Shown piece after piece: positions 3,772-28,017 of a DNA stretch of 64,000 nucleotides. A program made the position numbers and the translations under genes. Location of the stretch: NCBI GenBank assembly GCA_021904315.1, contig CM038910.1, positions 10,788,001 to 10,852,000 on the forward strand, in the 5' to 3' direction. Under the pieces are notes generated by a model that worked only from the letters and a program-made list of their open reading frames with translations, did no database searches and was not told the origin of the DNA. Source of the stretch: Sphagnum magellanicum (taxonomy: Eukaryota > Streptophyta > Sphagnopsida > Sphagnales > Sphagnaceae). Position 1 is the stretch's first letter; every line of letters starts with the position of its first letter.

Positions 3772-3803
3772 AGAGCATCTCCACTGGTGTTTAGCATGTG
3801 ACT
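3772..3803 (+). repeat. Left terminal inverted repeat of the 4.1-kb element
   Basis: 32-bp arm starting AGAGCATCTCCACTGG and ending TGTGACT. The partner arm is at 7882-7913; five of the six differences are transitions. Confidence 0.55.
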
Positions 3804-4478
3804 TTGGGCTGGAGTGAACCAGTAGCCACCCATGCATTAGTTTAAATGAGGTTGTTCAAGCCGTTTTGGGGATGAACCAAAAACACATCTTCTTCCCCTA
3901 CCCAAGGATTTTTCAGCCCCCTTTTCTGCTCCAAAATTTTCATCTCCTACCTACTCCCCCCCCCCACCCCCCCTCCTACCTCCCTCACCTCATTTCCCGC
4001 TCATTCCATCTCTAGAGCTCGGGAGAGCTCTTGAGCTTGAGTAGCACAGAGCTTTGAGGAGATGTGACACACAAGGCTTGAGGAAGGTGGAGAGTTCAAT
4101 GTTGAAGGAATGTGAAGAGGAAAAAGTAAGACGAGCCCTTGATCCCAAATGCAGAATTGAAAAAAGAAAGGTAATCTCCCTCCCTTTCTGCAATTTTTTT
4201 TTTTTTCTTTGTGTTTTTTTTTCTTTTCTTTTGCTTGAAAAGAAAAAGAAGCCACGAAGAAAGCACTTGAAATGAAAAGTCAGAAACAGGATGCTAGAAG
4301 CAGGAGCTAAAAGTGAGAGGGCAAAGTAAGAGATTGAAAGTAAGCTCCCTCCTTTTTTTACATTTTTTTTCTTATCTATGGTTTCTTTTTTCTTTGTGTT
4401 TTTTTTTCTTTTCTAAGCTCCCTCCTTTCTCTTGGTTCTTTTTTTGTTGTTTTCTTGTGTGTTTTGTTTTCTTTGTGT

Positions 4479-5122
4479 TTGAAAAGAAGAAGACGAGAAC
4501 ATGTTGTCAATGTGCCGTCATCTTTTTTTATGGTGTTATTCCAATGAAGAAAGCGATGGCAACTTGTTACCATTGCCTTCTTCTTTGTTGGTGTTCAAGC
4601 AAAAAAGGTAACGACAACTTGTTGTTGTTACCTTTTTTTTTGTGTTAGAGAAGAAGAAGACAACAACAATGCGTCGTTGTCTTATTTTGAGGTGCTATTA
4701 GAACAAAAAAGGCAACGACAACAAGTTGTCGTCGCTTTCTTTTTTGTGTTTAAAAAAAAAAGAAAATAAAAAGAGGATGGTGTGGCAACAAGCCGTCGTC
4801 TTCTCCTATGGTGGTGTTCTAGTAAAGAAAGTGATGGTAGCAAACTACCATCGCTTTCTTCTTTGGTGTTGTTGAAGCAAAGAAGGCAACAACAACTTGT
4901 TGTCATTGCCTTATTTTTTGTTAGAAAAAAAGAAGATGACGACAATGTGTCGTCATCTTCTTCTATGGTGTTGTTACAATAAAAAAAGTGACGGCAACAA
5001 CATGGTCGCCTTCTTTTTTGTGTTTGAAAAAAAGAAAACGACAGCGTGGCAACACATTTTCTTCTATGGTGGTGTTCCAATGAAGAAGGCAATAACAACT
5101 TGTTGCTATCGCTTTCTTCTTT
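4479..5122. repeat. Tandem array of about 12 short hairpin units (~54-bp period)
   Basis: Each unit has a purine-rich 5' arm (AAGAAGG or AAAAAAG), a 10-15 bp stem, a tiny loop and a pyrimidine-rich 3' arm, followed by a spacer like TATGGTGTTGTTCCAAT. Clear hairpins are at 4545-4583, 4601-4640, 4651-4688, 4705-4746, 4824-4862, 4880-4915, 4929-4964, 4980-5022 and 5082-5122; weaker ones are near 4479-4530, 4770-4800 and 5026-5065. Stem sequences differ between units (GATGACGAC/GTCGTCATC, GTGATGGTAG/CTACCATCGC, GGTAACGACAAC/GTTGTTGTTACC) but remain largely paired. Reading frames through it, up to 191 codons, are low-complexity and are not taken as genes. Confidence 0.8.
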
Positions 5123-5707
5123 GGTGGTGTTAAGGTTTAACTTGATGGTTTTTGGATGTTTATAAGGTTTAATGCACAACAAAAGAAGAGTTTGTTGCAA
5201 ATGCAATTCAAGTTGAGATGCAATGCTGCCATTTATACATTGTTCGTCATGTAACAAGGGTTACAAATGCAACAACTTCTTACCAAGTTAAACACGAGAT
5301 TGTAGATAATGATATGCTTTAAGGTTTCCACTTTATACAGTTAGTTAAGTTTTTTCAACCTTTTCATTTTTTGGACTACTCAATTTTTGAATTTTGGTCC
5401 ATTGATATATTACAAAAAATCTTTTTTTTCATTATGTTTTTTAACATTATTGATCCACCCATATTTGTACATCTTTTATCAATATAATATTTTCCTCTAG
5501 TCATACTTGTTTGATGTGTAGATGGTTAATTATATATGTTTCTTTTTTCACAATTTTCTTAATACTTTAAATTAAGAATCAAAACTTAAATAAGCCCATA
5601 TGAATAGGTCACATTAATTTTTTTAGGGTTCACAAAAATCAAAATGAACATTGTGTAATACCTACACCCTTTCTATTATAATTTCCATAAGGCCATTTCA
5701 AATATAC

Positions 5708-5880
5708 AATACCCACATATAGGTCTCGTAAATAGTTGCTAATTTTTTTACATCCATTGTAATACCCTCATATAGGTGTCTTAAATAGTTGTCGATTTTT
5801 TACATCCATTGCAATACTCGCATATAGGTTTTGTAAATAGTTATTAACTTTTTTTACATCCATTGTAATATTCGTATGTC
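5708..5880 (+). repeat. Tandem repeat, three ~53-bp units plus a partial fourth
   Basis: Units at 5708-5760, 5761-5812 and 5813-5866, then a partial unit. Each runs from AATAC through CATATAGG and AAATAGTT to ACATCCATTG. The units differ at roughly a fifth of positions. Confidence 0.9.
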
Positions 5881-6777
5881 CCAAATTTCAAACCTAAACC
5901 ATAATTTTAAAATTAAGTAATAAATTTTACATTAAACCTTAACCCCCTATATCATCAATGTGACCAATTTTGCATTATGTTCATTTTTATATATGTTAAA
6001 TCATATTATAAGGTGAATAAATAATTTTGAAAACATGAATTTCATGATGTATTGGCGAAGAATCAAATATTTAAAAAATATTTTTATGTTTCATGGTTAA
6101 TGAATTATCACAATATGATATAGATATTGCATTTAAACAAAAGTGGGTTAGGAAATATTGAACTTTAACAACTATGGAACAAATGGAATAAAGGAGATTC
6201 ATAATTATGTTATAGATCTAAACAAATGATAAGATCAAAAACTAATACAATGAGCAAAGTCTGAAATATAAACCTTAAACTTTGATATATATGAAGCAAA
6301 TTCCTAAACATTAAATCATAAAAAGTTTTAATGATATATGTCTTAAATTCAAAAAACTATACAAAATATACAAATTATATAATGCAAAACTAAATAAATA
6401 AATAGGGAAAATTTTAGAAACCAAATTATAAAACTTTTAAATTCCATAGATTTACTAACCGAAAAAAAACCTTAATATTAAAAAACAATCAAATAAATTT
6501 TGTAAAAAACCAAAAGAAAATATATGTCTTTTACTTTTGTGTGATCTTTCCAAACTAGTTTTTTCCACTTTTTTTGAAAAAAATATAAAATGAAATTGTA
6601 TTACGTCACATATGTCTAAACCCTAAAATTCCCCCTTAAATTTAGTTTAGTTTAGGTTACTTACTATAAATTTGTGAAAAACTTGCTAACTAATTTATGT
6701 GTCCCAACCTTAAACCTAAACCATAATCCAATAGTACATAAATATAATAATTACATGAAAAGATGTTTTGTAACGTA

Positions 6778-7290
6778 AGAGGTAAGTAGGAAGGTGGGTG
6801 CATAGGTAGGTATATAGGTAGGTAGTTGGGTTAGTAGGTAATTAGTAAATAAAAAGGAACTTCAAGGAGCAAAGTAGATAGGTTACTAAAGTAGATAAGC
6901 ATGTAGGTAGGCAAGTTAGTAGATAGGAAGAAAGTTACACTAGCAAGGTAGCTAGGTAGATAGGCAAGTTAATATGTAAGAACAAGTTACCTTATCAAGG
7001 TGACTAAGTTTGTAAAATATTTATGTCAATAGGGTGATTGTGTATATAGGGTTGCTAAATAGTAATGTAGTTAGGTTAGTAGGGTAGGTAGTTGATACAA
7101 TGGTTAAATTTGTAAGGAAGTTAAATCAATAAGGTATATAGTTAACAGGGTAGCTAGGTTAATAGAGTCAGTAGTTAATATAGTAGTTAGGTCAGTAGGA
7201 TAATTAGTTATTAAGGTAGCTATGTCACTAGGATAATTAGTAAGGTACCAAGGTTGGTACAATATTTATGAAAGTAGGAAGGTGAGTAGG
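6778..7290 (+). repeat. Degenerate GGTA/TAGG-type repeat tract
   Basis: Dense occurrences of TAGGTAGG, GTAGGTA and TTAGTAGG separated by AT-rich spacers, decaying toward both ends. Looks like an old, heavily mutated microsatellite. No coding potential recognised. Confidence 0.75.
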
Positions 7291-7576
7291 GTAGCTATGT
7301 GTGAAATCAGGTCTGAAGAAAAAACAACAAAGAACAAACCCAAAACAAAATGTATAGTGATCAGCAATGAAAAGAAATGGACTGTGATGAACCCCATCTA
7401 ATGCCAAATGAAAAACCGCAGACCATCCAGTGGACAAAACGACCAACAGGTGCATTGGTGGCTGCTGGTTCGTTCTGGTCGTCACTCTGGACAATAAAAT
7501 TAAATGTCTAAGTTTGGCTCTTTTGTTTTTTGGCAACCCCACCAATAACTGGAACTGGAACTGCATATACGTGGGA

Positions 7577-7754
7577 ACTACTAATAGCAAGCCACCTGGA
7601 CCAATCATTATGATCGACCAATCAAAAGTACTGAGCCGCAGTCAGGTCCAATTTATCACACTCTTACTACTAATAGCAAACCACCTGGACCAATCATTAT
7701 GATCGACCAATCAAAAGTACTGAGCCGCAGTCAGGTCCAATTTATCACACTCTT
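7577..7754 (+). repeat. Recent 89-bp tandem duplication
   Basis: 7577-7665 is repeated at 7666-7754 with essentially one difference (GCAAGCC versus GCAAACC). Both copies contain GGACCAATCATTATGATCG and AGCCGCAGTCAGGTCC. The near-identity implies a recent duplication inside the 4.1-kb TIR element. Confidence 0.95.
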
Positions 7755-7913
7755 TTTTGGTGGTGCATAATTGCATCTTTTACCAGCCATGGCAAGCTGC
7801 TGTGAATGTGGTGCAGAAGAACCAATTTGCTGAGCTAAACCGGCAGATTTTTACCTTCTCACAACAAATTTTGCTGTTTGGAGTCACACACTGAGCAGCG
7901 GTGGAGATGCTCT

Positions 7914-10137
7914 GAGGACCTTATTTGCTACAGTCTAAGGACAGAGGACACTTGTAGCCAATTAATTGACTCTAATGAAAATACTTAAGAAGTCGCGGAA
8001 AAAAAAAGCAGAAAGCCTCCTCTCAGGCAGAAGATTTTCAGGAACAGTTTTACTCATTATCTAATCCATTTTGATGTTGATGGTATGGCGCCCTGTTACA
8101 GGCAATCCAAAAATTGGTGATAAACCGGTGAGTGTGGCCTGTGCACGGTATTCTTTAGTAAAAGGCGAAAGAATAGTTCGCTTTGCACTGACAACGCAGT
8201 CTTAGCAATTCTCCTCATTGTGAACCTGGTCTTTATACTGCAAGAAACGGTGTTTTCTGGCAATTGATATGGGACAATATCTTTCTTCGTCGTACACAGG
8301 AGTTCCTTGAGGGAGGGGGACGACTATGGTAATCCAGGCGCTTGGTTTGCTTTGCAGCACAGCACGACGTGTTTTGCCTTTTCTAACGTTCGAGGTTCCG
8401 AGTGGGGTCGGGGGGAGTAGAGACGGAGAGAGATTCTTGGCACGCGTTGTGGTTGTATGAATGTCGACTTATTGAAGGAAGGTAGAAGGAAGGAATGGAG
8501 CTAAAAGTATTTTTGGTTCCATAGATTGCAGGGGATAAATAGGTATGCAAAACCAGGCAATTTTTGTCATGAAGTAAAAATGAACAGATTGGTACACACA
8601 ACTCATGAAGGAGAATGCTGGAAACAGGACATGCTAAGACTCCAAAAATATACTCAAAAGCAACTGAACCTGAGAATTCTAACAGCTAGCTGATCAAAAT
8701 GAATGCTGAACATCAATGAACTTATCTAGATGTAAATGGAGAAGGACCAAAGCATAGGTGTATCTTTTGTGTAGGACTTCCTTATGTTTAGGATCTGAAG
8801 TGATCCTGAGCAGGGATTTTTTATCAGTTGTGTTATATCAAAAATTTGGCAAATTTTTCAACCAAAAAAAGAAGACAATTTAATCAAATTTGCGTCACAA
8901 AAAGAAATCCCTTTTTTCTCAAAAAAACCCACAGAATTTGTCCAAAACAAGTGCTGAGATTCCTGAGAGATCCATTACAAAACCATCGGTCAAGAGAACC
9001 TTTGCAGGATTAATATATCAATATTATACCTTCTCAAAAGTTGCACCAACCAAGAGCTCCACTCCTCCTCGAGCTCATACTCTAAGAATCATACGATCAT
9101 TGACCATTTTCACACTCCTAAAATCAAGTTCCAACATACTCACTCTCTTTCCTAACTTCTTATCCTCAGCATTGTACCACACTCACATTTGAAAGGCACT
9201 CTATACACAAAGATTTCAACAGACATTTCCTAGTGTATTTTGACAACACATTATAACACGGGAATTTTCCCACCAACAGAAGAGCAAGACTAGGGTTATG
9301 ATAACAACATTTGCCTCCTGCTTTACAATAGGTTAAGGCCCAAGGGTGGAGGACAATCTCAAAATATAATGCTGGACTCAACTAGCACCTCGTCCTAGGC
9401 CCCTTATTTTTGGGATGCTCACCTTGGGGCCTTACCCTACACATTCACTCTTCCACACACCCAACATATTAGAGCTTCTTTTCAACCAACATCTGCATTT
9501 GCAAAACAAACACCTACCGAGCCTATCAAGACCAGTCTCCACTTCCACTGTATAGTAATCTCATTAAAACCATCACAATTTCCCATAAGACACCAAAAAA
9601 GGTGCTGAGTGTTACCACTAACAAATTGCTAACTTCGAGTACTCGTCTCTCTCTCACCACAAGGCATGCAAACTCCATTTGAGAGTGATGCTTGTAATGA
9701 AGTAAATATTTACAGTCACTTTCCTAGTATTGGTTCTGTTCTACACAAGAGAGACAGTGCAAAGCCACTTGAGTGTCTCTCTACAGTTTCCAGTGTGTAT
9801 ATTGCAACAAAAGCCACATTGACTTGAAAGAGTCTTGTCACTTTGAGTTCACCACCAAGCCAAGAGCAGCCTGTTCCATGCTCTGCAGCATTCCTTCAAG
9901 AACAAAACTCTCTGAAGGACTTTACACTCTCTGCTTCAACTTCGTTTGAAACAGAGAAAGCAAAGGGAAAAGGCAGCCAATGGTATAAAACTTCATACTC
10001 TGTGCCCGTCAACAGTCTTAAGACACACCCTTCAGTACCCCCTGTTCAGTATGTGTTGAATTATGCAATCCCATTCCTCAAAAATGGATGAGTTCCCCTT
10101 TGCTGTTGCCTGGAAGCTCTCAAAACATCTAATCCCC
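7914..10137. other. Intergenic region, no gene recognised
   Basis: Mixed-composition sequence with no homology I recognise, no RNA gene and no clear repeat family. The last 300-500 bases probably include the 3' UTR of the minus-strand DUF7950 gene that ends at 10138. An 82-codon plus-strand frame at 9843-10091 lies there and shows no recognisable motif. Confidence 0.5.
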
Positions 10138-13100
10138 TCAAATCCCCAGTGGTTGCCAGTCATTGAAGATATTGAATTTCCAAACCAAAAAAGGACCTGA
10201 ACTGTCCGCATCGAGTCTTATCACATCTGTGGGGATGACAAATGTGCTGTTCTTGCCTCTGTTCTTTGGCCACTGTACACGAACTTGACAAGAAAACTCA
10301 GCTGCATCCACTGGAGGTTGCTCACCAGCAAAGACAATTGAGACATCTCCAGCTAACCCATTACGCAAGTGAACTTCAAGTTCCAGGTTCCCTCCAACTC
10401 TGGGACTCAACCAGGCACATTCAGTTTGTCCCACCATCTGCTTGTATGCTGTGTTCACCCAACGTACCTTGTGTGTCACATCAGTAATCACACTTGGCAA
10501 CAGCAGCTTCTCAAGCTGATCTTGGAACGCCTCCACTCTTCCTGTCATTGGAGATGCAAGCTGATTGACCTTGGTTATACACTCTAGACATATCGTGGAT
10601 CCAACAGCTTGCACAGGTTGTGGAGCAATAACCTTGTGTGGTGAAAGACCTAATGAGAGGTCTCCTTCATAGGCAACAATATGCTTCAAAACCATCGATG
10701 CATCAAACGACACTGTTCTCGAATCTTGAGGTTGTTCATGCAATTGGGCTTGAAACATCCATTCTCCCAACCCTTTGCTGTCAGAAAAGCATGGATGAAC
10801 CTCTTGGAAGATGAATTTCTTCAAGAAACCCCATAGAACAGCCTTACACTTTGCAGCAGAGTATCGGGGCTGAAATGTCAAGACAGCAAGTTGGGTTGGA
10901 ATCCCCAGTCGATTGATATGTGGACCTGCAGACTACACCAGAGAAAGTGAAAGCACCACCATTAGAGTTCATACAAGGAACATCCCTGACAGTTCACACA
11001 AGGAAACATCACATTATTTTAATGAATATTCTAACCCCTTCCAGCATATTTATAGAAGAGTATGCCACAAAGAGGTCTGTTAAGACATTGGGTACCAAAT
11101 GTCAGAGATTCCAGATTTGTCTTTTGAACTAACTCCAGTGCCTTAAGGTTTAGTATCTTCCAAATAGCTGAGAATTTGGAAAGACAAACAAGAGTTTGCA
11201 AAAATGTCCTACAGTGAACACAGTACTCTGCACAAGACCCATGTTAATGAACAACAATCCTGCAAAACTTGTGTGCATATTAGATTCTAGATATCTTGGA
11301 CATACGTTGTGTAGAGATTTTCTCTGCCAAAAACTATTGAGCAGCATGCGAGCTCTTCCAAGAACCTTGAAGGACCTTGAATTCAGGCTCAATTTGGTCC
11401 TTTTGTACACTTGTCCATCTACTGTAATTCTGCAGATGCAGCCAAAATTATCTTCCATCCATATTGCAAAGAGTATTTTGCTCATTCCTGTCCCAGACTG
11501 TCCTCAGATTTGACCCTTCTCAAGAAAACTGTGACAATAATTCCCCTGGTTTTCAAAACACCTATAAAGATCCCTTGTAAAACTGCCTCCCAATAGGAGG
11601 AGCTTCAGATCCTGCGGAGCAATTCAAGCATTATTAAGAAATGATGAAAATCGGGAATTTCAAGGTTCCTCTCTCTTCTGGGTTGAGATATTTTCAGATT
11701 CAGACATGAATGCAACACACTGCATCATCCCAGCAGAATCTGTGCACTTAGGGTAGCAGTAGAGAAACGGATGATTTTGTTGTACCATTTACCATACAGT
11801 GTGAGCCCTTTAAGCATGAAGCAAAAAGGATTCGGTGTGCTGAAGGTAGTTTGGGCCACAGGCACTGAGAAAGAAGCTTCAGAAGAGCAAAGTGGTAACA
11901 AAACCATGAACCTCTGATGATGGTGATCAACTAATGCTAACATAGCTGCAACATCTGTTTAACCAGCTTCAATTCATCAAGTATGGTCCTGCAATCACTC
12001 TGTCATACTTGATGCAAGGGACTCATTTCTGAAGCATCGTCCTTTCGATGTCAGGCCAAGGTACTTCCTAACAAGATCCTCCAGGGCTGTAGATCCAATG
12101 CAGAAAGAGTGTAGAATTTCTCAAATGAGTAGAGTCAAACAGGAAACAGGCAATGTGACAATACTGCCCCTGAAACACTTGTTTATGAGCAAACTCACCT
12201 GCATCTTGCCACTTGTTTTCTCAGTAGCTGCTCTCTGGAATGCTAAATTGGACCATAGCACGCTGTTATGTTCATCTGTGAGCAGCATAGCATCAGATGA
12301 GGTTGCATACACTTGGTCGAGATAATACCAATCCACAACCGGTCCATTCGGAGCCTGTCTTGTGTCGCTACGTGCAGGGCAGTGTGATGGAGCGTGAGTA
12401 GTCCTGCTCCCGCTCATCACCTGCTCCACAAAACCCAGAGCAGCCACAGGCCCAAAGTTGTCTGTCACTACTGGCATGTCTTCGAATTTCTTTGGGTTGT
12501 TCTTCAGCCCCTTGTTGCACGTCGGATCTCTGCATTCCTCCTCCCGCAGCTGCTGCTCTTCCCCTCTACTCAACATGGTCAGCTTCGTATCCGCAACAAC
12601 AACTTGATTGATTACTCCTCCTCCTTCGTCGTTGCAGTCGATTCTCAAACCATGCGCGGATGAACTTGGAAGTGAAGAAGACTTGGATTTTTGGGCGTAC
12701 GAAGAGCTGACAAAGGAGGAGTCTGACGGCGATGATGATGGCCCGTGCAGTGGATTCTCTGGCAGTAAAGAGAGCGTTACGACATCCGTTCTCCTGCTTT
12801 CTGCAACATCTTCGCCCGAACAAACTTCACTCTCGGCGCCGTAAGAAGCAGAAGCATACGGCAGAGGCATGAGATTGCCTCTCAGACACTCACTGGACGA
12901 CTTCGTAACTGTGCTTTCGTTGAACCTCTGCAAGCCTCCGGGGGCCACGATGTCGCTCAGAATTGGCGTAAGCTCTACTACTGGAACCTCCAGCTTGACG
13001 TTGCGGGGAAAACCAGACTCGTTCCGTTTGGACCTCTCTGTTACCGACGCCTTGTTCGTGGTGGTGGTTACCTTACGGCCCTTGTCGGGAGCAGCGGCGA

Positions 13101-13392
13101 CGGAAGCTTTCTTCGCATGTCTTGTTGTTGATGCCGGCGAGTAATCAGTCTGCCGTTTGCGAGATCTTCCCCCCTTGGCTTCTGTGAGCTTCTTGCTGGA
13201 GCCCTTGTCCAAAAAGAGGGAGGAAGATGTCTGCGGACCTGACGGATCCGTGCCAGCTTCCGGGCTCGGAGCGAGCGGCTTCGGTGCAATGGGACGATAC
13301 CTTGACATGATAACATATCGATTCTTGGACGGGAATGCCGGAGTGCCTGCGTACATTGCGATACAGCAACCTCCTTGATTAGCCCGACTCAT
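10138..13392 (-). CDS. DUF7950-type plant protein, two exons, 641 aa
   Basis: Exon 1 is 12199-13392 (398 codons, donor GTGAGT). Exon 2 is 10138-10869 (acceptor TTTCAG, 243 codons plus TGA). The junction is phase 0, so the reading frame is intact. The N-terminus GGCCIAMY (residues 7-14) and RYRPIAPKPLAP (31-42) match what I know of plant DUF7950 proteins, as does the C-terminal region with VRWVNTAYKQMVG (533-545), FSCQVRVQW and a final LVWKFNIFNDW. The middle of exon 1 is serine-rich, basic and probably disordered. At the end of exon 1, LLTDEHNSVLWSNLAFQ resembles the C-terminal VITDVTHKVRWVNTAY, suggesting a repeated PAS-like motif. Function unknown; nuclear location would be a guess. The 1.33-kb intron contains no other gene that I see. 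Confidence 0.85.
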
Positions 13393-14061
13393 CACCCTCC
13401 TACGATCCTCCTTTTGCTTCGCCTCCTTTCCGTCTCCTTCCTGGTTTCTTTATGCTACGTTCAAACTGCACTCAAGGCACAGCTCCAAGCATCCGCAAGT
13501 TCCTTCTGTCTCACAGCACATCAGCTACTAGAAACTCCATGCGAAGGAATCCTACGACCAGAGCGTGTAACGATCGGTGGTCGCATAATATCAATGGATG
13601 CCATGCGCGACTTGCCGATGCCATGCGCATCAGGGTCTAGATCCTCCTCCTGGCTCCTGGCTCCTTGCAACAGGAATTAAAATCACAACAATATCCGGGC
13701 AAAATAATCCGTCCTTCGAGGTTCTCTGGGGGAGGAGAAAAAAAAGTGTTGTGGAGTGGCGGGAGAGGACAGCAACAGCGTACCAACGACCGATACTGAA
13801 GCAGAAAACAAACGGCAAAAAGGGCTGATTTCCAAAACGACTGATTCTCAAGCTCAACGAGATCAAAATACATCAATCAAACGAAAAGAGCTGCAGCAAC
13901 AAGAATTGGAAGAATCCAGAAAATGCAGAGACAAGAAAGAAGACAAAATAGTCGAGCGAGAGAAGACTCCAAACGCAAAACTCATGCACACACCGGCCAT
14001 GTCTCCAACCGCGAGCGACACCGCAAAAGGAAAGCCTGTGTCTCTCTCGACTCGACTCGAC
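13393..14061. promoter_or_regulatory. Probable promoter and 5' UTR of the DUF7950 gene
   Basis: GC-richer than the surrounding DNA, lies immediately upstream of the DUF7950 start codon and contains no recognised gene. No convincing TATA box or start site could be fixed. Assigned only by position. Confidence 0.35.
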
Positions 14062-17700: not shown

Positions 17701-20189
17701 GTGCCAACTTTTCATCAATCCACAACTTGAAAGGTTTTGGAACTTGAACCATCTTCTTTTTTGATGGAAAGTTACAAACAAGGAGGACAAGCCTACCAGC
17801 CATTGTCTAAAAGCATGAACAAACAAAAAATTCAAACATAAGAAAATAACATTCACATGGATATTGCATTCAAGCCAAAAAGATTAAACATTAGATGACT
17901 ACATTATGAAGTCAAGAAATTTATTGTTTTCTTTTGGATCCAAAGGTCGTGTGAGTTTCAATCTAATATTGCACACAATCCACCTTTGGAAAACTTGGAA
18001 ATTGTTGTTTGTTAGGTAAGCACCAATCTATTTGAACACCTTGGGGTCATATGGGTAAAAGATGAGTAGTGCACCATCATCATGCAAAAAAGATGTGCAA
18101 AAAGAAAACAAACAATCAAGGAAAGAATCATTTGTTGTGTTCCAAGGGGGCACAAAAAAATTTGAAAATGATAAATCGAGCATAGGTAGACCATCCGAAA
18201 GATCAACAATTACAAGGTCAACTACTCCACCATCATGTTATTTCCCACGAAAATATCATTTGGCATCACTACACGCCTACACAAGTGGACATATTTTTTC
18301 AAAAATTGCATATGGCATGGAAGTGTATTAAAAACCCACCACAAGGTTGTATTGCACATAATACATGTTTGATGAAACCTTTCATATCTACAAAACATTG
18401 TGGCCAAACACCTATGCTTCTCTTGTTGTCCACAATGCCTATGAATGATGTAGTAATGACCAATTCTTGCATTTTACATCTAACTAGGGGGGTTTGACCA
18501 AGTTCACTTTTGTAATGGAGCTACACCTCGAGTCTACTATGGCTTCTTGTGATGGGTGCTCATGTAGTCATATGCTTCCTCAATGACAATATTTAATTTA
18601 GTAACATTTTCCCCTTCAAGATCAACCACCTTACATTTATTTTCGCGTGTTTCAAAAGCAATTGTGGCATTGTCCAAATTTAGGTTCTTGTTCAAAGGTG
18701 GTTTCTTTTGTTTTTCCCCATGTTTTTCCTCTAGCACCACATGTTGAAAGAAACCTAATTCAATTTGTTCATGAAACCCTTGCTTAGTTTGTGAAGTTTT
18801 GTTCTTGGAATAGTCAAAATACCACCCACAATTGTCCAAATGTTTAAAACTCCAATTAATTATCATTAAGTTGGAATACATGATTAATGAATATTCGAGA
18901 TCAACAATTTCCATGTATAGTTTGGGCATGCTTGTAAATACCTGAGTAGGCAACAACACAAACTTGAGATACCTGTTACACAACCACCATGCAAAGGAAA
19001 ATAAGAAAAAATCAAATTTCATACATAATGAATTGACAAAGGAAACAAAATTTTCAAAAAAAAAATTTAATTTATATTAAACCCCAATATGGAAATGTGC
19101 ATTAAAATATATAGACATGCACACAATTCATTTGAGTACTTATAAGGACCCAAATTGTTTAAACCATTAATGATTTTTTTGAATCCCAACCAGTTCGATA
19201 AGGCCATTGAATTCTTTGTAGAAACAATTTTCCCACATCTTTTATCACTAATGCTCAATGTATTCATCAGTTGACTGAACCTCCACTCCTAGCATTGTGG
19301 TGCAAATCTCAACCCCATTGTTAATTTGTCCTTTCTTACGGTAACCATCACTTGTTTCAACAAGAAACAAACATGTGAAAATTTCAAGTAATCAACATTA
19401 ATTCTTAAAAAAAAGTAATTATTGCAATCAAAACTTCAAAACCATGATTTACCTAAGCCCAAAATGTTGCATAGTGCAACCAATGTGTGAAGTTAATTTT
19501 TGACACATCATAAATTCTCCCTAACAAGACATTTTGAATTCCACCACTTAGCCAAGTTACTTTTTGAATTGGTTCAACAAGGGATGTGACCAAAAGCTAT
19601 AGTTTTTCAAATGTCATCTCTGCTTCTTCATTTCATTTTGAGTCATAGTGACATTGTATTAAAAAATTTGAAACTTAATGTTGGATTTGCCAAAGACACC
19701 ATTTTCCCAAAATTTGTGTCATATGACTTTCTCTTGTCATCAATTGCATTGGTCATGAGTTATTCCAATTCCTTTTTAAAACATTCTAACACCTCTACAA
19801 CATTCTCATAATATCAATGCATAGCCAAATCTATCATAGCTATAATTTCTCATTGTAACAAAAGAACATCAACAAGCCATGACAAAAGAAAAACAAGCCA
19901 CAAGCATATATCCATCATGTTTGAAATTCAATGACAAAAGAATTAAAACTTACATTATACAAATAGTCAATCATTGCCTCCTTTATTAAGGAATACCATT
20001 TTTTTTTATCCCCTTTCGTATTAAGAATCAAGAATAATTTCCTTTAATTGTTATAATGGAATCTATCTAACATTTTGGATTTAGTATAACATGTGAATGA
20101 AACTACCTTTCACATGGTCATATTTAATGGATTTATGAAAAGATCCCACAACAAACATAATTAGTACATGAAATATTGATGATTACCAC
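14706..20189. other. AT-rich intergenic block with weak coding-like remnants
   Basis: No intact gene. From about 15600 onward the minus strand has scattered open stretches with protein-like composition, broken by stops: 17181-17372 (ending in an acidic run DETDFDEDDDG), 17612-17803 (VPKPFKLWIDEKLAHFGVD) and 18537-19022 (161 codons, highly charged C-terminal half). I recognise none of them. A decayed transposon or a heavily mutated gene copy is the likeliest source. Confidence 0.35.
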
Positions 20190-21157
20190 TGACACACTCC
20201 CAACTCCTCAAAGGGCTCAAATGTGAGCCCAAGTAAGAAAACAGCGGAAGAAGGAGGAGTCGGAGCACGCTCCCTAGCTCACAACACTTTGAGGAGTAGA
20301 GGGGCGTGTTGAAGCTCCGGGATGGGACTAGGAACAGTTCACAAGCTTCACTCACTCACACGGGCCTGCACACAACCCACACAAAGTGGTTAGTGCATAG
20401 TTGGAGCACCCTTGGTGCTAGGACGAGCCACGGGCAACACGGACACACAACCCTAAACCATGGCCCAGACTTGGGGGAAGCCACCACCTTCCCCCTTATA
20501 GTATACTCTGCAGCTCTCCACGGAGGCTACATCCAAATGGCTATTTTTCCCGAGTGGGAGTCTCGAAATCACGCCAAATGGGACTCCCACGACTTTGGAG
20601 CCCCATAACTTTGCGAGCAGACCTTGGATCGCGATGCAGTCTAAATCAAAGTTGTAGCTCTCGTCAAGAGCTTTCCAACAATATGTGGCACGCCCCCTGC
20701 AGCTAAGTAAATCGGGTCGATTACTGACTTTTTGTGGTCGGGAATCAAATTGGCAGTTCGACTCCCGGCCCTTCTTTTGACCATAACTTGTGTTTCAGAT
20801 GTCTGAATGAACAATGCGAGCCCATTTTAGACATCTACGCTTCAAGAACTTTTCAATGATATAATGAACGCCACAAGACATTGAGGTTTGACCCCTGCAA
20901 TTACTCTCTAAAGTTTCGGGAGTCCACTGGGACTCCATCTCCCAAAGTGGGAGTTGTCTTGGGAGTGTGAGGGTTCACTCCCTCATACTCCCTCACACTT
21001 TCTAACACTCCCGGGAGTATGTGATGTGACTCCCGGGCTTCCTCTTTCCTTAACTCTCGGGCTTCCTCTTGCCTTAACTCCTGGGCTTCCTTCCTCTTGG
21101 CCCGCAACCTTGCAACCCCTTTGCCTTAGTCGCGAGCCCAAAGCTAGGGTTGCGACA
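20190..21157. mobile_element. Solo-LTR-like element, copy 1 (968 bp)
   Basis: Begins TGACACACTCCC and ends GGGTTGCGACA, so it has TG...CA ends. It is nearly identical over its length to the element at 26916-27854, which is flanked by a 5-bp target duplication and so defines the true ends. No PBS or PPT adjoins it and no internal region belongs to it, so it is read as a solo LTR. Unlike copy 2 it has no target-site duplication: the left flank is ACCAC and the right flank is ACAAA. Its right end sits exactly at the truncated start of a copia polymerase. Confidence 0.8.
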
Positions 21158-21160
21158 ACA

Positions 21161-24100
21161 AAGAATTTGGTTTCTGTTGGGCAAATGATTGAGCAGGGTT
21201 TGCAAGTTCGGTTCAACCCTGATGGTTGCTATGTCGAAGACTTCAAGGACAAATGTCATTTAATTGCTAAGGGCAAAAGAGTGAGCAGAATGTTTACCTT
21301 GGATGTAAGCATGCCTAAGGTGGAAGCTGCTATGTTTGCAAAAGGTGCAGGAGTTGTGGCTGATATGGACATATGGCATAAGCGTATTGGTCACGTAAAT
21401 GAGTAGCGATTGAAGTTTATGTAGAGTTCAGAAATTGTCACAGGTTTACCAAAGTTTAAAGTGGATGGAATGCATAAGATATGTGAAGCATGTCAATTTG
21501 GGAAACAAACAAAGAATGTGTTTCCGCATGACAAGAATGTAAGTAAAAGAGCACTTGATGTAGTGCATTCAGATGTATGGGGGCCAACCAAGACGGCGTC
21601 AATGGGAGGATGTCGCTACTATGTATCATTCATTGATGACCACACAAGGAGAGTGTGGGTGTACTTCATGAAGGAAAAAAGTGAAGTGTTTACTCACTTT
21701 CAGAATTTCAGAATGTTGGCTGAAAAGCAAACATGGTTGCAGGTTAAGTGCCTAAGGTTAGATGGAGGGGGAGAATATTTCTCCAATGAGTTTACTACAT
21801 GTCTGAAAATGCATGGAATTCAAAGGCAATTTACATGCAAGTATACTCCGCAACAAAATGGAGTTGCTGAGAGAAATAATAGGCACATTGTAGAGGTTGC
21901 TCGTGCATTAATGGCTGACAAGAGCATGCCACATCATTATTGGGCCGAAGTAGTTTCGACTGCAGTTTACATCATGAACAGGACCCCCACAGTAGCAGTG
22001 CATGGTATGACTCCAGAGGATACAATGGCAGAAAACCAGATTTGTCACACTTGAAAGTGTTTGGGTGCATTGCATATGTACATGTACCAGATGAGCTACA
22101 GACTAAACTGGATCTGAAGGTTGAAAAATGTGTTTTCATTGGGTACTCATTTGAGCAGAAAGGGTACAGATGTTATAACCCTATCACACGTAAAATGAGG
22201 GTGAGCAGGGATGTTGTGTTTGATGAAATGAGCAACTGGTATGCTGATGTGAAAGACATTATTGGGGCTGATGTAGATGAGCATGTGGTTGCAAAGAATG
22301 TAGATCAGCAATCACAAACATTGAGTGGATCTACTAATAGACCATGGAGTGGTAGGCTACGACGTCATAGCAGTAGTCCTACAAATACAGGTGATGCATC
22401 ATATAAAGGAAAAGAGAAGGTTGGTGAAGCCCTTGGTATGCCTGACATTTCTGCAGGATATTCACATGTAGATGGAGAGTCTAATGGCTCTGAGCAAAGC
22501 CTTGATGAGGAGTTTGGGATTCCAGCTATCAGGACACTTGGTGTGAAAAGAGCTAATGTAGCAAATAGGACACCATGGACAGATCTAGGTCCACGTAGGT
22601 CTACCAGGGAAAGATGACCAGTCCAGAGATTGATATATGATGGTTATGTAGCTCGCCATTATGCATATATGGCAAAGGTTGTGCAGGATGTTGAACCCAT
22701 TTGTTTTGAGGATGCCATTGGGCATGCACTTTGGGATAAAACCATGGATGAGGAGATGGCTGCATTGGATGCAAAGGGGACATGGGAGTTGGTGCCTTTG
22801 CCTAAAGGGAAAAAGGCTATTGGATGTAAGTGGGTGTACAAAGTGAAACACAACTTGGATGGAAGCATAAGCAAGTATAAGGCTAGATTAGTAGCCAAAG
22901 GATATGCCCAGACACTTGGCATTGATTATGAGGAGACATTTGCTCATGTTGCAAAGATGGCAACAGTGAGAGCTGTGATTGTAGTGGTTGCATCAAGAGG
23001 TTGGCTGTTACATCAAATGGATGTAAAGAATGCCTTCTTGCATGGCGAGTTGCAAGAAGAGGTGTATTTGGACCAACCACCTGGATATGAGGATATGAGT
23101 CACCCAAATTATGTGTGCAGGCTGCGTAAAGCCTTGTATGGACTGAAACAGGCACCGAGAGCATGGCATGACAAAATTGCAGAGTATCTTGTCACCATTG
23201 GCTTTTGTATGTCAAATGCAGATCATTCACTCTATGTGCGTAAAAGTGATGAGGGCATTGTGGTCATCATTATCTATGTGGATGATTTGATTGTTGGGGG
23301 TGACAATGAAAAGGAAGTTGAGCATGTAAAACGTCTCCTTAAGTAGAAATTTGACATGAAGGATCTAGGTGAGCTCAAATTCTTCCTAGGCATTGAGGTC
23401 ATCAAGACGCCTGAGGGTATATGGTTGTTACAGTGACAATATGCATTGGACATGTTGTCCAAATATGGTATGGTTGGTTGTAAGCCCATTTCTATACCAC
23501 TGAATCAGAATGGCAAGCTGAGTGCAGATGCAGGTGAGGTTTTAGAGGATGCCACTATGTACAGGAAGATAATGGGCAATCTTATCTACATGACGATCAC
23601 TAGGCCAGACTTAAACTACATAGTTGGGTTGGAGAGCCAGTTTATGCAGGTTCTTTAGAAGCCACATTTGGATGGTGTGAGGCACACACTACGCTATGTG
23701 AGTGCCACAGCAGATTATGGTCTCTTTTATGAAGCTAGCACGGAGTTGCAGGTGCATGGATACATAGATGCTGATTAGGTTAGTAGCATCTCAGACAGGA
23801 GATCTACTAGTGATTTTATGTTCTCTTTTGGGAGTGCTACTATTACTTGGAGTAGCAAGAAGCAGCCGACAGTTGCCTTGTCGAGCACAGAAGCAGAGTA
23901 CAAGGGTGCTGCGATGACAGCATGTGAGGTAGCTTGGCTCCGCAAGCTACTTGGAGATTTGGGGCTGCATGTGGACAGACAGGTTGTCATATATTGTGAT
24001 AACCTTAGTAGTATTCAGCTGGCTAGGAACCCAGTGTTTCATGCACGAACAAAACACATTGAGGTTCATTATCACTTCATTAGGGAGAAGGTCTTGGCAG

Positions 24101-24476: not shown

Positions 24477-26167
24477 CAATATCACCTATGTAAATGCATT
24501 CTACATGCCATCCTTTCCAATGTACAACAACACATGACTACCCATTCCATTTGCTCATAATAAGATCCCATGCATCGACATCCAAGGCAATGACATGGCC
24601 GAAAAAATGGCCAAACTTGGATATCTACAATGACACTTACAACCCAACAATAATTTCATCCACATATATCATCCCAAGGTTCTAATATTACTTACAAAGT
24701 GACAAGTTTCATCCAAGCCTTACCCATAATATACATACACATTTTCTTCTCTCACATTGACCACACCATCCATTAGATCTCCCCACAACAAGCCCCATTC
24801 TACAAATGTTTTTAAAACATACCCCTCATTGAATATTATCCAATCATTTTTGGACCCACCCATCGGTTTTAACATCGTAAATAACATGAACACTTCATTT
24901 TTGAAACATGGACAACTATCCAAAAATCTCCTTTAGCATGTTCTTTTCAATCCTTAATGTGTAAGCAATGCGAACCCTTCATCACCCATGCAAATAGATG
25001 GACACCTTTTTTTCCCTCTTGCCAACACTCAATATTCCATGGTTATAGATAACACCATAACAAAACCCTTCAACACATTAAGTATTTCTTCCACACCCAC
25101 CATTCTACTAGATGGTGATGTTTTATTCCCATTCAAAATGTTATTATTTTGCCTAATTATGTCTATATATCCTTCTACTAGATGGTTTTTTCATACATCC
25201 ACCCTTTTAAATCATCAAATTCACATATTGCCATGACCAATTCTCATAACTTGTTATCACCAAAAAAATTGAACAACTAAAAAGTTCTTTTGAATGTACC
25301 ATCCATTTGCACGAATGGCCAATTGACCTCCTATTAATCCTACCTTTGGTTCAAAAGGAGGAATGCACCTACACATGTCCTCCAACCTTTTACAAACATG
25401 ATTCCAAGTCCCAATGTCCTAAATTCGATCTAATCGCTATGTATCATCATTTTTAATAAATGTAAACTTGAATATCAAATTCGTATTATTGCTAATCCAC
25501 ATGCCACCACCTTCTAAATTGCTTTTAAAAGTGCCCTAGATATATATATTAAAGTGACTATTATAAAGTTCACCCTAGATAAGTTGTAGTAACCTTATGG
25601 TGGAGAACCTCTTATTTATAAATGATGATTAAGGCATTTGTTTCCTCTCTCCTCTCACTTTCTTTCATTTCCAAAGATCCCATACATGTTCATGTTCTTC
25701 TCATTAGTCTTAGTTTTTATCCCATATCTTGCCCAAAGTTTTATTTTATTTAGTCTAGATGGATGAACCAATTGAAAAGGCTATGCACATTCCATCTTTT
25801 AAGTGGCCAGAGGCCAAAAGATTAAGTGGTGTTACTAATAGCCCACTTTTTATAATTTTTTTAGTAGTTTTATTGTTTCAAGTTGCTAAGGTTGGGTGTC
25901 CGTTAAATATTTTCACTTGTACTTGTATTTATATTTTTACCCAATCCACTTGACATAAAGGTGAATTAAGATGTTGCAAATTTAGGGAACACATAATTTT
26001 CCTCAATGTTGTACAACCCAAGCTACCTATCATTTTAGGAAAAAGTAAAAATGAAAAGACAAATAAGTGCACAACTTGGTGATTTTGGGAAAATGGCACC
26101 CATTATTTTTAATTTTATGGGCATTATAGGCCATTGAATATGTAAACCAAGACTAATTTATTCCCTA
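24477..26167. other. AT-rich intergenic DNA, no gene recognised
   Basis: Low-GC sequence with many short open frames. One minus-strand stretch at 24720-24923 (67 codons, containing VLKTFVEWGLLWGDLM) looks like decayed coding DNA but I do not recognise it. Confidence 0.4.
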
Positions 26168-28017
26168 TGATGCACCCCCAAGCTCCTTGATAGACTCAAA
26201 TGTGAATGAATCTAAGGTGAAAATAGTGGAAGGATAAGAAGTTGAGGTACGTTCCCTAGTTTGTAGCATTTTGGGGGTAGAGGGGCGTGCTCGAGCTATG
26301 AAATGAGGACCAAAATGAGTGACAAGCGAGTCAATTACTCACATAAACATGCACAAACCTACACAAACCTAACAACAAGTTGGTTAATGCACAATTGGAG
26401 CACTTTTGAGGCATAGACAAGCCACTGGCAAACATGAACTCACAAGACTCACCACGGCCCGGACTTGGGGAAGCCCACCTTCCCCCTTATAGTATTCTCT
26501 GTGCTTAACCACGAGGCCTACACCCAAATGTCAATTTTTCTTGGGAGTCCCAAAATTAGGACTCCCATGACTTTGGAAGCCCATAATTTTTTGTGTAGAC
26601 CTCCAATTAAAATGAGATTTTTAAAAAATTTGTATTTTTTTTTAAGAGCTTTTCAATGATATGTGGCGCACTAGTTGCACAAAAATAAATCAGGGCGATT
26701 TTTGACTTTTAGTGGTCGGGAATCAAATTGGCAATTTGACTCCCGACATTTCTTTTGGCCATAACTTATGCTTTAAGTACCCAAATGGGTCATGTGAACC
26801 CATTTTAAATATTTAAGTCTCAAGATATTTATAATGATATAAGGAACCTTTCAATCCAATGAGTTTTGACCACCGTAATCGCCCTTTGAAAATTTGTGAA
26901 TCCATTCGGACTTTATGACGCACTCCCAACTCCTCAAAGGGCTCAAATGTGAGCCCAAGTAAGAAAACAGCGGAAGAAGGAGGAGTCGGAGCACGCTCCC
27001 TAGCTCACAACACTTTGAGGAGTAGAGGGGCGTGTTGAAGCTCCGGGATGGGACTAGGAACAGTTCACAAGCTTCATTCACTCACACGGGCCTGCACACA
27101 ACCCACACAAAGTGGTTAGTGCATAGTTGGAGCACCCTTGGTGCTAGGACGAACCACGGGCAACACGGACACACAAGACTCACCACGGCCCGGACTTGGG
27201 GGAAGCCACCACCTTCCCCCTTATAGTATACTCTGCAGCTCTCCATGGAGGCTACATCCAAATTGCTATTTTTCCCGAGTGGGAGTCCCGAAATCGCGCC
27301 AAATGGGACTCCCACAACTTTGGAGCCCCATAACTTTGCGAGCAGACCTCGGATCGCAATGCGATCTCAAGCAAAGTTGTAGCTCTCGTTGAGAGCTTTC
27401 CAACGATATGTGGCACGCCCCCTGCAGCTAAGTAAATCGGGTCGATTACTGACTTTTTGTGGTCGGGAGTCAAATTGGCAATTCGATTCCCGGCCCTTCT
27501 TTTGACCATAACTTGTGTTTCAGATGTCTGAATGAGCAATGCAAGCCCATTTTAGACATTTACGCTTCAAGAGCTTTCCAATGATATAAAGAACGCCATA
27601 AGACATTGAGGTTTGACCCCTGTAATCGCTCTCTGAAGTTTTGAGAGTCCACCGGGACTCCATCTCCCAACTGGGAGTTGCCTTGGGAGTGTGAGGGTTC
27701 ATTCCCTCATACTCCCTCACACTTTTTAACACTCCCGGGAGTATGTGATGTGACTCCCGGGCTTCCTCTTGCCTTAACTCCCGGGCTTCCTCTTGGCCTG
27801 CAACCTTACAACCCCCTTAGCCTTGGTCGCGAGCCCAAAGCTAGGGTTGCGACACTTTAACTCCCAAAATGGGAACCCATTTGGGAGTGTGTGGGTTCAA
27901 TCCCTCACACTTTCCTACATTCCTAGGAGCATTAAATGTGACTCCTAAGCTTCACTCTTGGCTCACACCTTTGTAGGCCCTTACCTTGGTCGCAAGCCCA
28001 AAACTAGGGTTGCGACA
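26168..28017. mobile_element. Older solo-LTR-like element, copy 3, split by copy 2
   Basis: The left part 26168-26915 starts TGATGCACCCCC and follows copies 1 and 2 in order but is strongly diverged. The right part 27860-28017 supplies the missing end, finishing CTAGGGTTGCGACA. With the inserted copy 2 and one duplicated CTTTA removed, the two parts form about 906 bp, comparable to the 939 and 968 bp of the younger copies. Five-base flanks are CCCTA on the left and CCTTA on the right, a plausible target duplication with one change. Confidence 0.85.
26916..27854. mobile_element. Young solo LTR, copy 2 (939 bp), with CTTTA target duplication
   Basis: Starts TGACGCACTCCC, ends GGTTGCGACA, and is flanked by the direct repeat CTTTA at 26911-26915 and 27855-27859. 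Near-identical to copy 1. It lies inside the diverged copy 3 of the same family. The 5-bp duplication and TG...CA ends are as expected for LTR retrotransposon integration, with the internal region later lost by LTR-LTR recombination. Confidence 0.95.

Follow-up and report, generated by a model that had tools for sequence, protein, structure and literature searches.

A tandem array of covarying hairpins in Sphagnum magellanicum, perhaps shaped by arm-to-arm templating within a probable old transposable element

Twelve tandem hairpin units lie at positions 4482-5134 of the 64-kb stretch of Sphagnum magellanicum DNA analyzed here (the window), and their two arms covary between unit types. On balance, we favor the view that they form a palindromic minisatellite that was shaped by arm-to-arm templating and is now decaying inside a probable old element with terminal inverted repeats (TIRs). 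A tandem array of covarying hairpins had been proposed at this place by a sequence-only reading, which our analysis confirmed in part: an array is present there. The reading gave about 54 bp per unit; the measured lengths are 46-71 bp.

Layout of the hairpin array

The 12 units can be read as 2.4 copies of a higher-order repeat of five units, in slots A-B-C-A2-D. The two full copies, H1 and H2, differ at 66 of 264 aligned columns, by 51 transitions and 15 transversions, and self-BLAST matched 4740-5131 to 4469-4873 at 72%. Tandem Repeats Finder at score 50 did not include the array in its output. The copies and units are listed below, with pair counts given as Watson-Crick pairs over 14 positions; the E values come from a covariance model built from six units (u2, u3, u5, u7, u8 and u12).

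4462..4739, plus strand: higher-order copy H1, u1-u5 in slots A-B-C-A2-D, aligned to H2
4740..5013, plus strand: higher-order copy H2, u6-u10, from BLAST and alignment to H1
5014..5140, plus strand: partial higher-order copy H3, u11-u12
4482..4529, unstranded: u1 hairpin, worn; slot A; 9/14 pairs; model E 0.14-0.31
4546..4583, unstranded: u2 hairpin; slot B; spacer ACTTGT; 11/14 pairs
4601..4638, unstranded: u3 hairpin; slot C; spacer ACTTGT; 13/14 pairs
4654..4686, unstranded: u4 hairpin; slot A2; 11/14 pairs; model E 0.0037
4705..4742, unstranded: u5 hairpin; slot D; spacer ACAAGT; 11/14 pairs
4771..4802, unstranded: u6 hairpin, worn; slot A; 9/14 pairs; missed by the model
4825..4860, unstranded: u7 hairpin; slot B; spacer GCAAAC, nearer the flipped form; 13/14 pairs
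4879..4916, unstranded: u8 hairpin; slot C; spacer ACTTGT; 11/14 pairs
4930..4962, unstranded: u9 hairpin; slot A2; perfect 15-bp stem; 14/14 pairs; model E 1.8e-05
4981..5016, unstranded: u10 hairpin, weak; slot D; 7/14 pairs; fold not significant; model E 0.0099
5026..5080, unstranded: u11, hairpin largely lost; slot A; 6/14 pairs; missed by the model
5082..5119, unstranded: u12 hairpin; slot B; spacer ACTTGT; 11/14 pairs

The CpG observed/expected ratio is 0.87 for the array (4479-5134), compared with 0.36 for the window and 0.39 for the surrounding element, and this high value coexists with the differences at 66 of 264 sites between H1 and H2. Decay of methylated cytosine at CpG was considered as the source of the transitions and dropped, because CpG is not hypermutable in the array (changed C-bearing sites: CG 6/19, CHG 1/2, CHH 44/96). 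Protein coding was also considered, as a 192-aa stop-to-stop frame on the minus strand (4682-5260) spans most of the array. It was rejected since the translation is of low complexity by eye and has no Pfam match at 0.001, and since unit lengths of 46-71 bp break the reading frame. At gathering scores, no Rfam family matched the array.

Pairing of the arms

Every unit was folded on both strands and compared with 300 dinucleotide shuffles per strand, as the earlier reading had proposed, and pairing stood above the shuffles in ten of the 12 units, in which at most 3 of 300 shuffles folded as well on at least one strand. The two others, u10 (60 and 10 of 300) and u11 (174 and 53), folded no better than shuffles. 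Folds matched by none of the 300 shuffles were found for 8/12 units on the minus strand and for 3/12 on the plus strand. The three stems quoted in the earlier reading are those of u9, u7 and u3, with 0/15, 1/16 and 1/18 mismatched pairs; these are the best three of the 12 and come from three different higher-order slots. The covariance model recovered u9, u4 and u10, all outside its training set, at E < 0.01; searched across all 64 kb with a cut-off of E 1, it gave no match beyond the array. Only one of the 14 stem pairs is identical across all 12 units.

The arms follow a purine/pyrimidine (R/Y) frame, in which left arms of (RRY)n face right arms of (RYY)n. Within the 656 bp of the array lie nine of the 25 RRY runs of at least four triplets found in the window (0.2 expected) and six of its 17 RYY runs (0.1 expected), and the frame is near-constant in slots B, C and D. 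It accounts for part of the pairing, not for all of it. Because of this period-3 frame, sliding the arms by 3 columns still pairs 66.7-71.6% of cells. When A and G, and C and T, were shuffled within their classes so that the frame was preserved, the summed pairing score averaged 90.2 (sd 5.8, largest 108), against 141 observed. Taken singly, seven of the 12 units exceeded such shuffles at P < 0.05; u1, u5, u6, u10 and u11 were not below this level.

Covariation between unit types

Across all 12 units and 14 pairs, 126 of 168 cells are Watson-Crick. Comparisons between units, which involve related members of one array and are not independent events, comprised 145 compensatory changes (247 two-sided changes in all), 272 one-sided changes and 405 unchanged pairs. 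The compensatory count compares with a mean of 58.6 in per-column shuffles, none of 500 being as high, and slides by 3 columns gave 55-60, about the shuffle mean. The excess was also seen in the four H2 units alone (15 vs 6.1 in shuffles, 1/500 as high) and in the four H1 units alone (13 vs 6.2, 25/500 as high).

A second test used 18 pairs in the six units that have the 6-nt spacer in register. Ten pairs showed a double change, seven were invariant and one departed solely through unpaired cells; none of the 18 was classed as varying on one side only, and the 108 cells held 5 one-side changes and 11 unpaired cells. The covariation score of 0.370 was reached by none of 500 shuffles. Further pair types showed no excess in this test (14 vs 14.0 in shuffles; 331/500), and sliding the alignment by -3 kept 8 double-change pairs with a score of 0.329, owing to the period-3 frame.

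Arms were also swapped between units, using windows centered on the hairpins and leaving each arm pair free to choose its best offset. Across all units, own arms paired better than swapped arms (p 0.0005). Inside slot classes, own arms had no advantage (A, p 0.39; B, p 0.33; C and D together, p 0.50). The claim that the two arms change together thus stands between unit types and has no measurable support within them; between the higher-order copies it is weak, one-sided changes outnumbering compensatory ones.

Changes since block duplication

H1 and H2 were compared over slots 2-5, the worn slot 1 (u1, u6 and u11) being left out of the main count. Depending on the reference copy, 4 or 5 compensatory changes stood against 15 or 13 one-sided changes, with null expectations for the compensatory changes of 2.1 (P 0.11) or 2.4 (P 0.03), respectively. 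With slot 1 added and H1 as reference, there were 4 compensatory (null 2.1, P 0.13) and 22 one-sided changes. Pooling with u12, by which units are reused, gave 9 compensatory changes against a null of 3.2 (P 0.0004).

Neutral decay was simulated for 14 pairs in each of slots 2-5 (56 pairs) at similar divergence. Assuming perfect ancestral hairpins, which favors a neutral reading, simulated Watson-Crick pairing was 0.784 to 0.755, against 0.812 observed (P 0.29 to 0.10). Three compensatory changes were observed in these 56 pairs vs 0.98-1.26 simulated (P 0.075-0.13), and 14 one-sided changes vs 18.9-20.6. Divergence was 0.240 in stems and 0.269 in linkers and loops. Since pairing is near the neutral level and stem divergence is about that of the linkers, stem pairing was seemingly good at block duplication and has mostly decayed since.

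Transitions and transversions number 36:5 in stems vs 15:10 in linkers (Fisher P 0.015). Of the 42 mismatched cells, 21 are A-C, 11 are G-T and 10 are other combinations; the G-T share was 0.34 vs 0.40 in shuffles, with 11/1000 shuffles as skewed.

Inversion of the spacer

Six of the 12 hairpins have a 6-nt spacer in register, which reads ACTTGT in four of them (u2, u3, u8 and u12). The spacer of u5, ACAAGT, is the exact reverse complement of this sequence and presumably the flipped form. That of u7, GCAAAC, is 3 transitions away from the flipped form and 3 transitions plus 2 transversions away from the unflipped form. Whichever of the other four units u5 or u7 is set against (eight comparisons), inverting the orientation removes two transversions; for u2 vs u5, for example, 9 transitions and 2 transversions become 5 transitions, and for u5 vs u12, inversion adds four transitions. 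The simulated chance per unit is 0.00075-0.0024 for a change of the center from TT to AA and 0.013-0.029 for any spacer nearer the inverted form, in a test that was chosen after the pattern had been seen and for a flip that rests on two bases.

The surrounding element and its neighborhood

The array lies between two candidate TIRs:

3772..3803, plus strand: left TIR, AGAGCATCTCCACTGG..., 26/32 identical to the reverse-complemented right end
7882..7913, minus strand: right TIR, forming a 32-bp pair with the left end, 26 identical

The score of this pair was equaled or exceeded by 2 of 2976 random segment pairs, the ends having been picked following a motif search. Together they would delimit a probable TIR element of about 4.1 kb, which appears old and non-coding. 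No exact target-site duplication was found, the flanking 3-mers being TAA/TGA or TTA/GAG. Eleven of the 16 ORFs of at least 60 aa that overlap the element were scanned for a transposase and gave no Pfam match above the cut-off (two sub-threshold DUF matches, E 0.04-0.05), in a scan that could miss a decayed transposase gene in short pieces. The candidate TIR transposon of the earlier reading is probable in view of the 32-bp ends, but it lacks an exact duplication, and the frames scanned gave no transposase. The array begins about 0.7 kb from the left end, inside the first third of the element, and the covariance model found no counterpart of it near the right end.

The ends read GAGCATCTCCA..., a type that we take to occur in plant PIF/Harbinger-like elements, whose target duplication is the 3-bp TTA/TAA. 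The element resembles these in its ends, in having TIRs (32 bp, 26 identical) and in its TAA/TGA flanks, which come near a TAA duplication; it differs in the absence of an exact duplication and of a DDE transposase from the ORFs scanned. Literature searches on the end motifs GAGCATCTCCA and AGCATCTCC gave no plant-transposon report among the matches listed.

Other repeats occur in the element. Degenerate tandem arrays were seen at 5708-5870 (52-bp unit) and 6777-7300 (GGTAGGTA-like units), and Tandem Repeats Finder reported 5708-5870, 7139-7241 and 7577-7754. The last of these, near the right end, is an 89-bp tandem duplication whose two copies are about 99% identical, and it is seemingly much younger than its old surroundings.

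Features elsewhere in the window are as follows:

8088-8202, minus strand: full-length U5 spliceosomal snRNA match (Rfam 85.9 bits, gathering 40), at a distance of about 175 bp from the element's right end, and the sole Rfam match in the window
8265-8275, minus strand: match with 2 mismatches to a plant snRNA upstream motif; 20 such matches in the window vs 16.7 expected
10138-13449, minus strand: exon of a protein of DUF7950, a plant family (Pfam 3.9e-13 at 10138-10932); the upstream 442-aa frame (12121-13449, without a Pfam match) may be the first exon of this gene
21425-23346: LTR-retrotransposon polyprotein (RVT_2, rve)
20182-21157 and 26160-27854: related repeats of about 0.75-0.97 kb on either side of the polyprotein and, given this placement, probably LTRs; 20190-21157 and 26916-27854 are 91.7% identical, and a further copy, about 70% similar, lies at 26166-26912

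Origin of the array

Under the favored reading, arm-to-arm templating, the array would have started from a short quasi-palindrome with a purine-rich (RRY)n and a pyrimidine-rich (RYY)n arm around a CTTG center, which would have been amplified into a block of five hairpins and then into 2.4 copies of this block. During block formation, template switching from arm to arm within a hairpin would repeatedly have rewritten one arm using the other as template, and mutations in one would thus have turned up in both; at times the switching would also have inverted the short spacer. Arm-to-arm conversion would be an equivalent alternative to template switching during replication. After block duplication, the hairpins would mostly have decayed by point substitution. 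The data directly show the array and the pairing of its arms, covariation from one unit type to another and the inverted u5 spacer; we infer template switching as the cause, this order of events, the direction in which the spacer flipped, and a lack of function of the array. A further-reaching version sees in the array a fossil left by recurrent template switching at CTTG-centered DNA hairpins in a plant transposon, with arm conversion and loop flipping preserved in its units and covariation that arose without any selection; it is put forward tentatively, as a possibility of about one in three at our present judgment.

Two published studies describe the process. According to Abraham and Hazkani-Covo (PMC8604942), template switching yields both homogenization of arms and inversion of spacers, including a 2-bp TT/AA spacer flip in yeast SPO75, and according to Monttinen and Loytynoja (PMC8794818) it can create and maintain stems, as in rRNA hairpins; CTTG loops make up 2.43% of the rRNA hairpins with instantaneous compensatory changes vs 0.01% of the full data. 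The array shares with the quasi-palindromes described in these studies a short spacer, near-perfect arms, paired changes, the TT/AA flip and the CTTG loops, and differs in that paralogous units of one tandem array are compared rather than orthologues. A minisatellite reported in a Porphyromonas MITE (PMC4596501) likewise consists of tandem units inside an inverted-repeat element, whereas the present units are long palindromes in a higher-order arrangement, in a plant host and an element of about 4.1 kb. Literature searches on tandem, palindromic or dyad repeats gave no description of the array in the titles or abstract openings of the matches listed, nor did searches on Harbinger and minisatellite.

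The earlier reading had offered selection on structure, arm-to-arm conversion and palindrome-templated replication as causes. The evidence leans towards the templated ones, on account of the flipped spacers of u5 and u7, the stem divergence close to that of the linkers and the near-neutral recent decay. Several observations count against template switching. The excess of compensatory changes over the null in the H1-H2 comparison is small, and own arms beat swapped arms solely between unit types. Stem transversions are few (36:5 vs 15:10), as pairing selection would give. In the six-unit test, further pair types are no higher than in shuffles and the -3 slide comes close. The flip concerns two bases, and u5 vs u12 gains four transitions when inverted. 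There is one array with few independent events, and exceptionally stable loops, among which PMC8794818 counts CTTG, are described there as unlikely to be inverted, which argues against frequent flips at CTTG.

Selection on RNA structure appears unlikely, with some support left in the transition bias of the stems and the small excess of mismatches that would be G-U in a minus-strand RNA. Under this reading, a present or past transcript, most likely of the minus strand, would have owed the upkeep of its paired hairpins to a small-RNA pathway or another RNA function that has since been relaxed. The covariation beyond shuffles in both the 12-unit and the six-unit tests would fit such selection, as would the ratios of 36:5 in stems and 15:10 in linkers, the 21 A-C mismatches (wobble pairs on the minus strand) vs 11 G-T with 11/1000 shuffles as skewed, the folds at 0/300 shuffles in 8/12 units on the minus strand vs 3/12 on the plus strand, and the 14 one-sided changes in slots 2-5, somewhat below the neutral 18.9-20.6 in a comparison that carries no P value. 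These signs are modest, and all derive from related units of a single array. Against them stand the divergence of stems (0.240), which is close to that of linkers (0.269), the near-neutral recent loss of pairing, u10 and u11, which fold no better than shuffles, the worn u1 and u6, and the Rfam search at gathering scores, which was negative for the array; a flipped spacer would not be expected from selection on the loop either.

Composition together with tandem duplication is a little less likely still. A degenerate triplet-like repeat, (RRY)n/(RYY)n, would then pair with itself without any paired change, the unit types being separate palindromes, which agrees with the near-constant frame in slots B, C and D, with the 66.7-71.6% of cells paired and 55-60 compensatory comparisons seen in 3-column slides, and with own arms pairing no better than swapped ones within slot classes. 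It does not agree with the frame-preserving shuffles, which reached 108 at most (mean 90.2, sd 5.8) against the observed 141, or with the per-column shuffles, which attained the observed compensatory count in 0/500. That the palindromes were kept on double-stranded DNA as subterminal repeats or binding sites of a transposon, for a dimeric transposase or a host protein, is very improbable: every unit is a dyad and the array falls within the first third of the probable TIR element, but about 0.7 kb separates it from the left end, it has no counterpart near the right end, only 1/14 stem pairs is constant across the 12 units, and the frames scanned contain no transposase.

The array is real and unusual-looking but explicable, and the most likely source of its covariation is arm-to-arm templating in replication or repair, a known mutational process. 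Covarying arms are commonly regarded as proof that an RNA stem is functional, and here is a case in which function need not follow. If its covariation indeed arose without selection, R-scape and other covariation tests would have a natural negative control in this array. By passing a covariation count while lying in non-coding repeat DNA, carrying a flipped spacer and decaying near-neutrally, it would be a concrete warning, and it would allow a test of how far mutation by itself can produce covariation.
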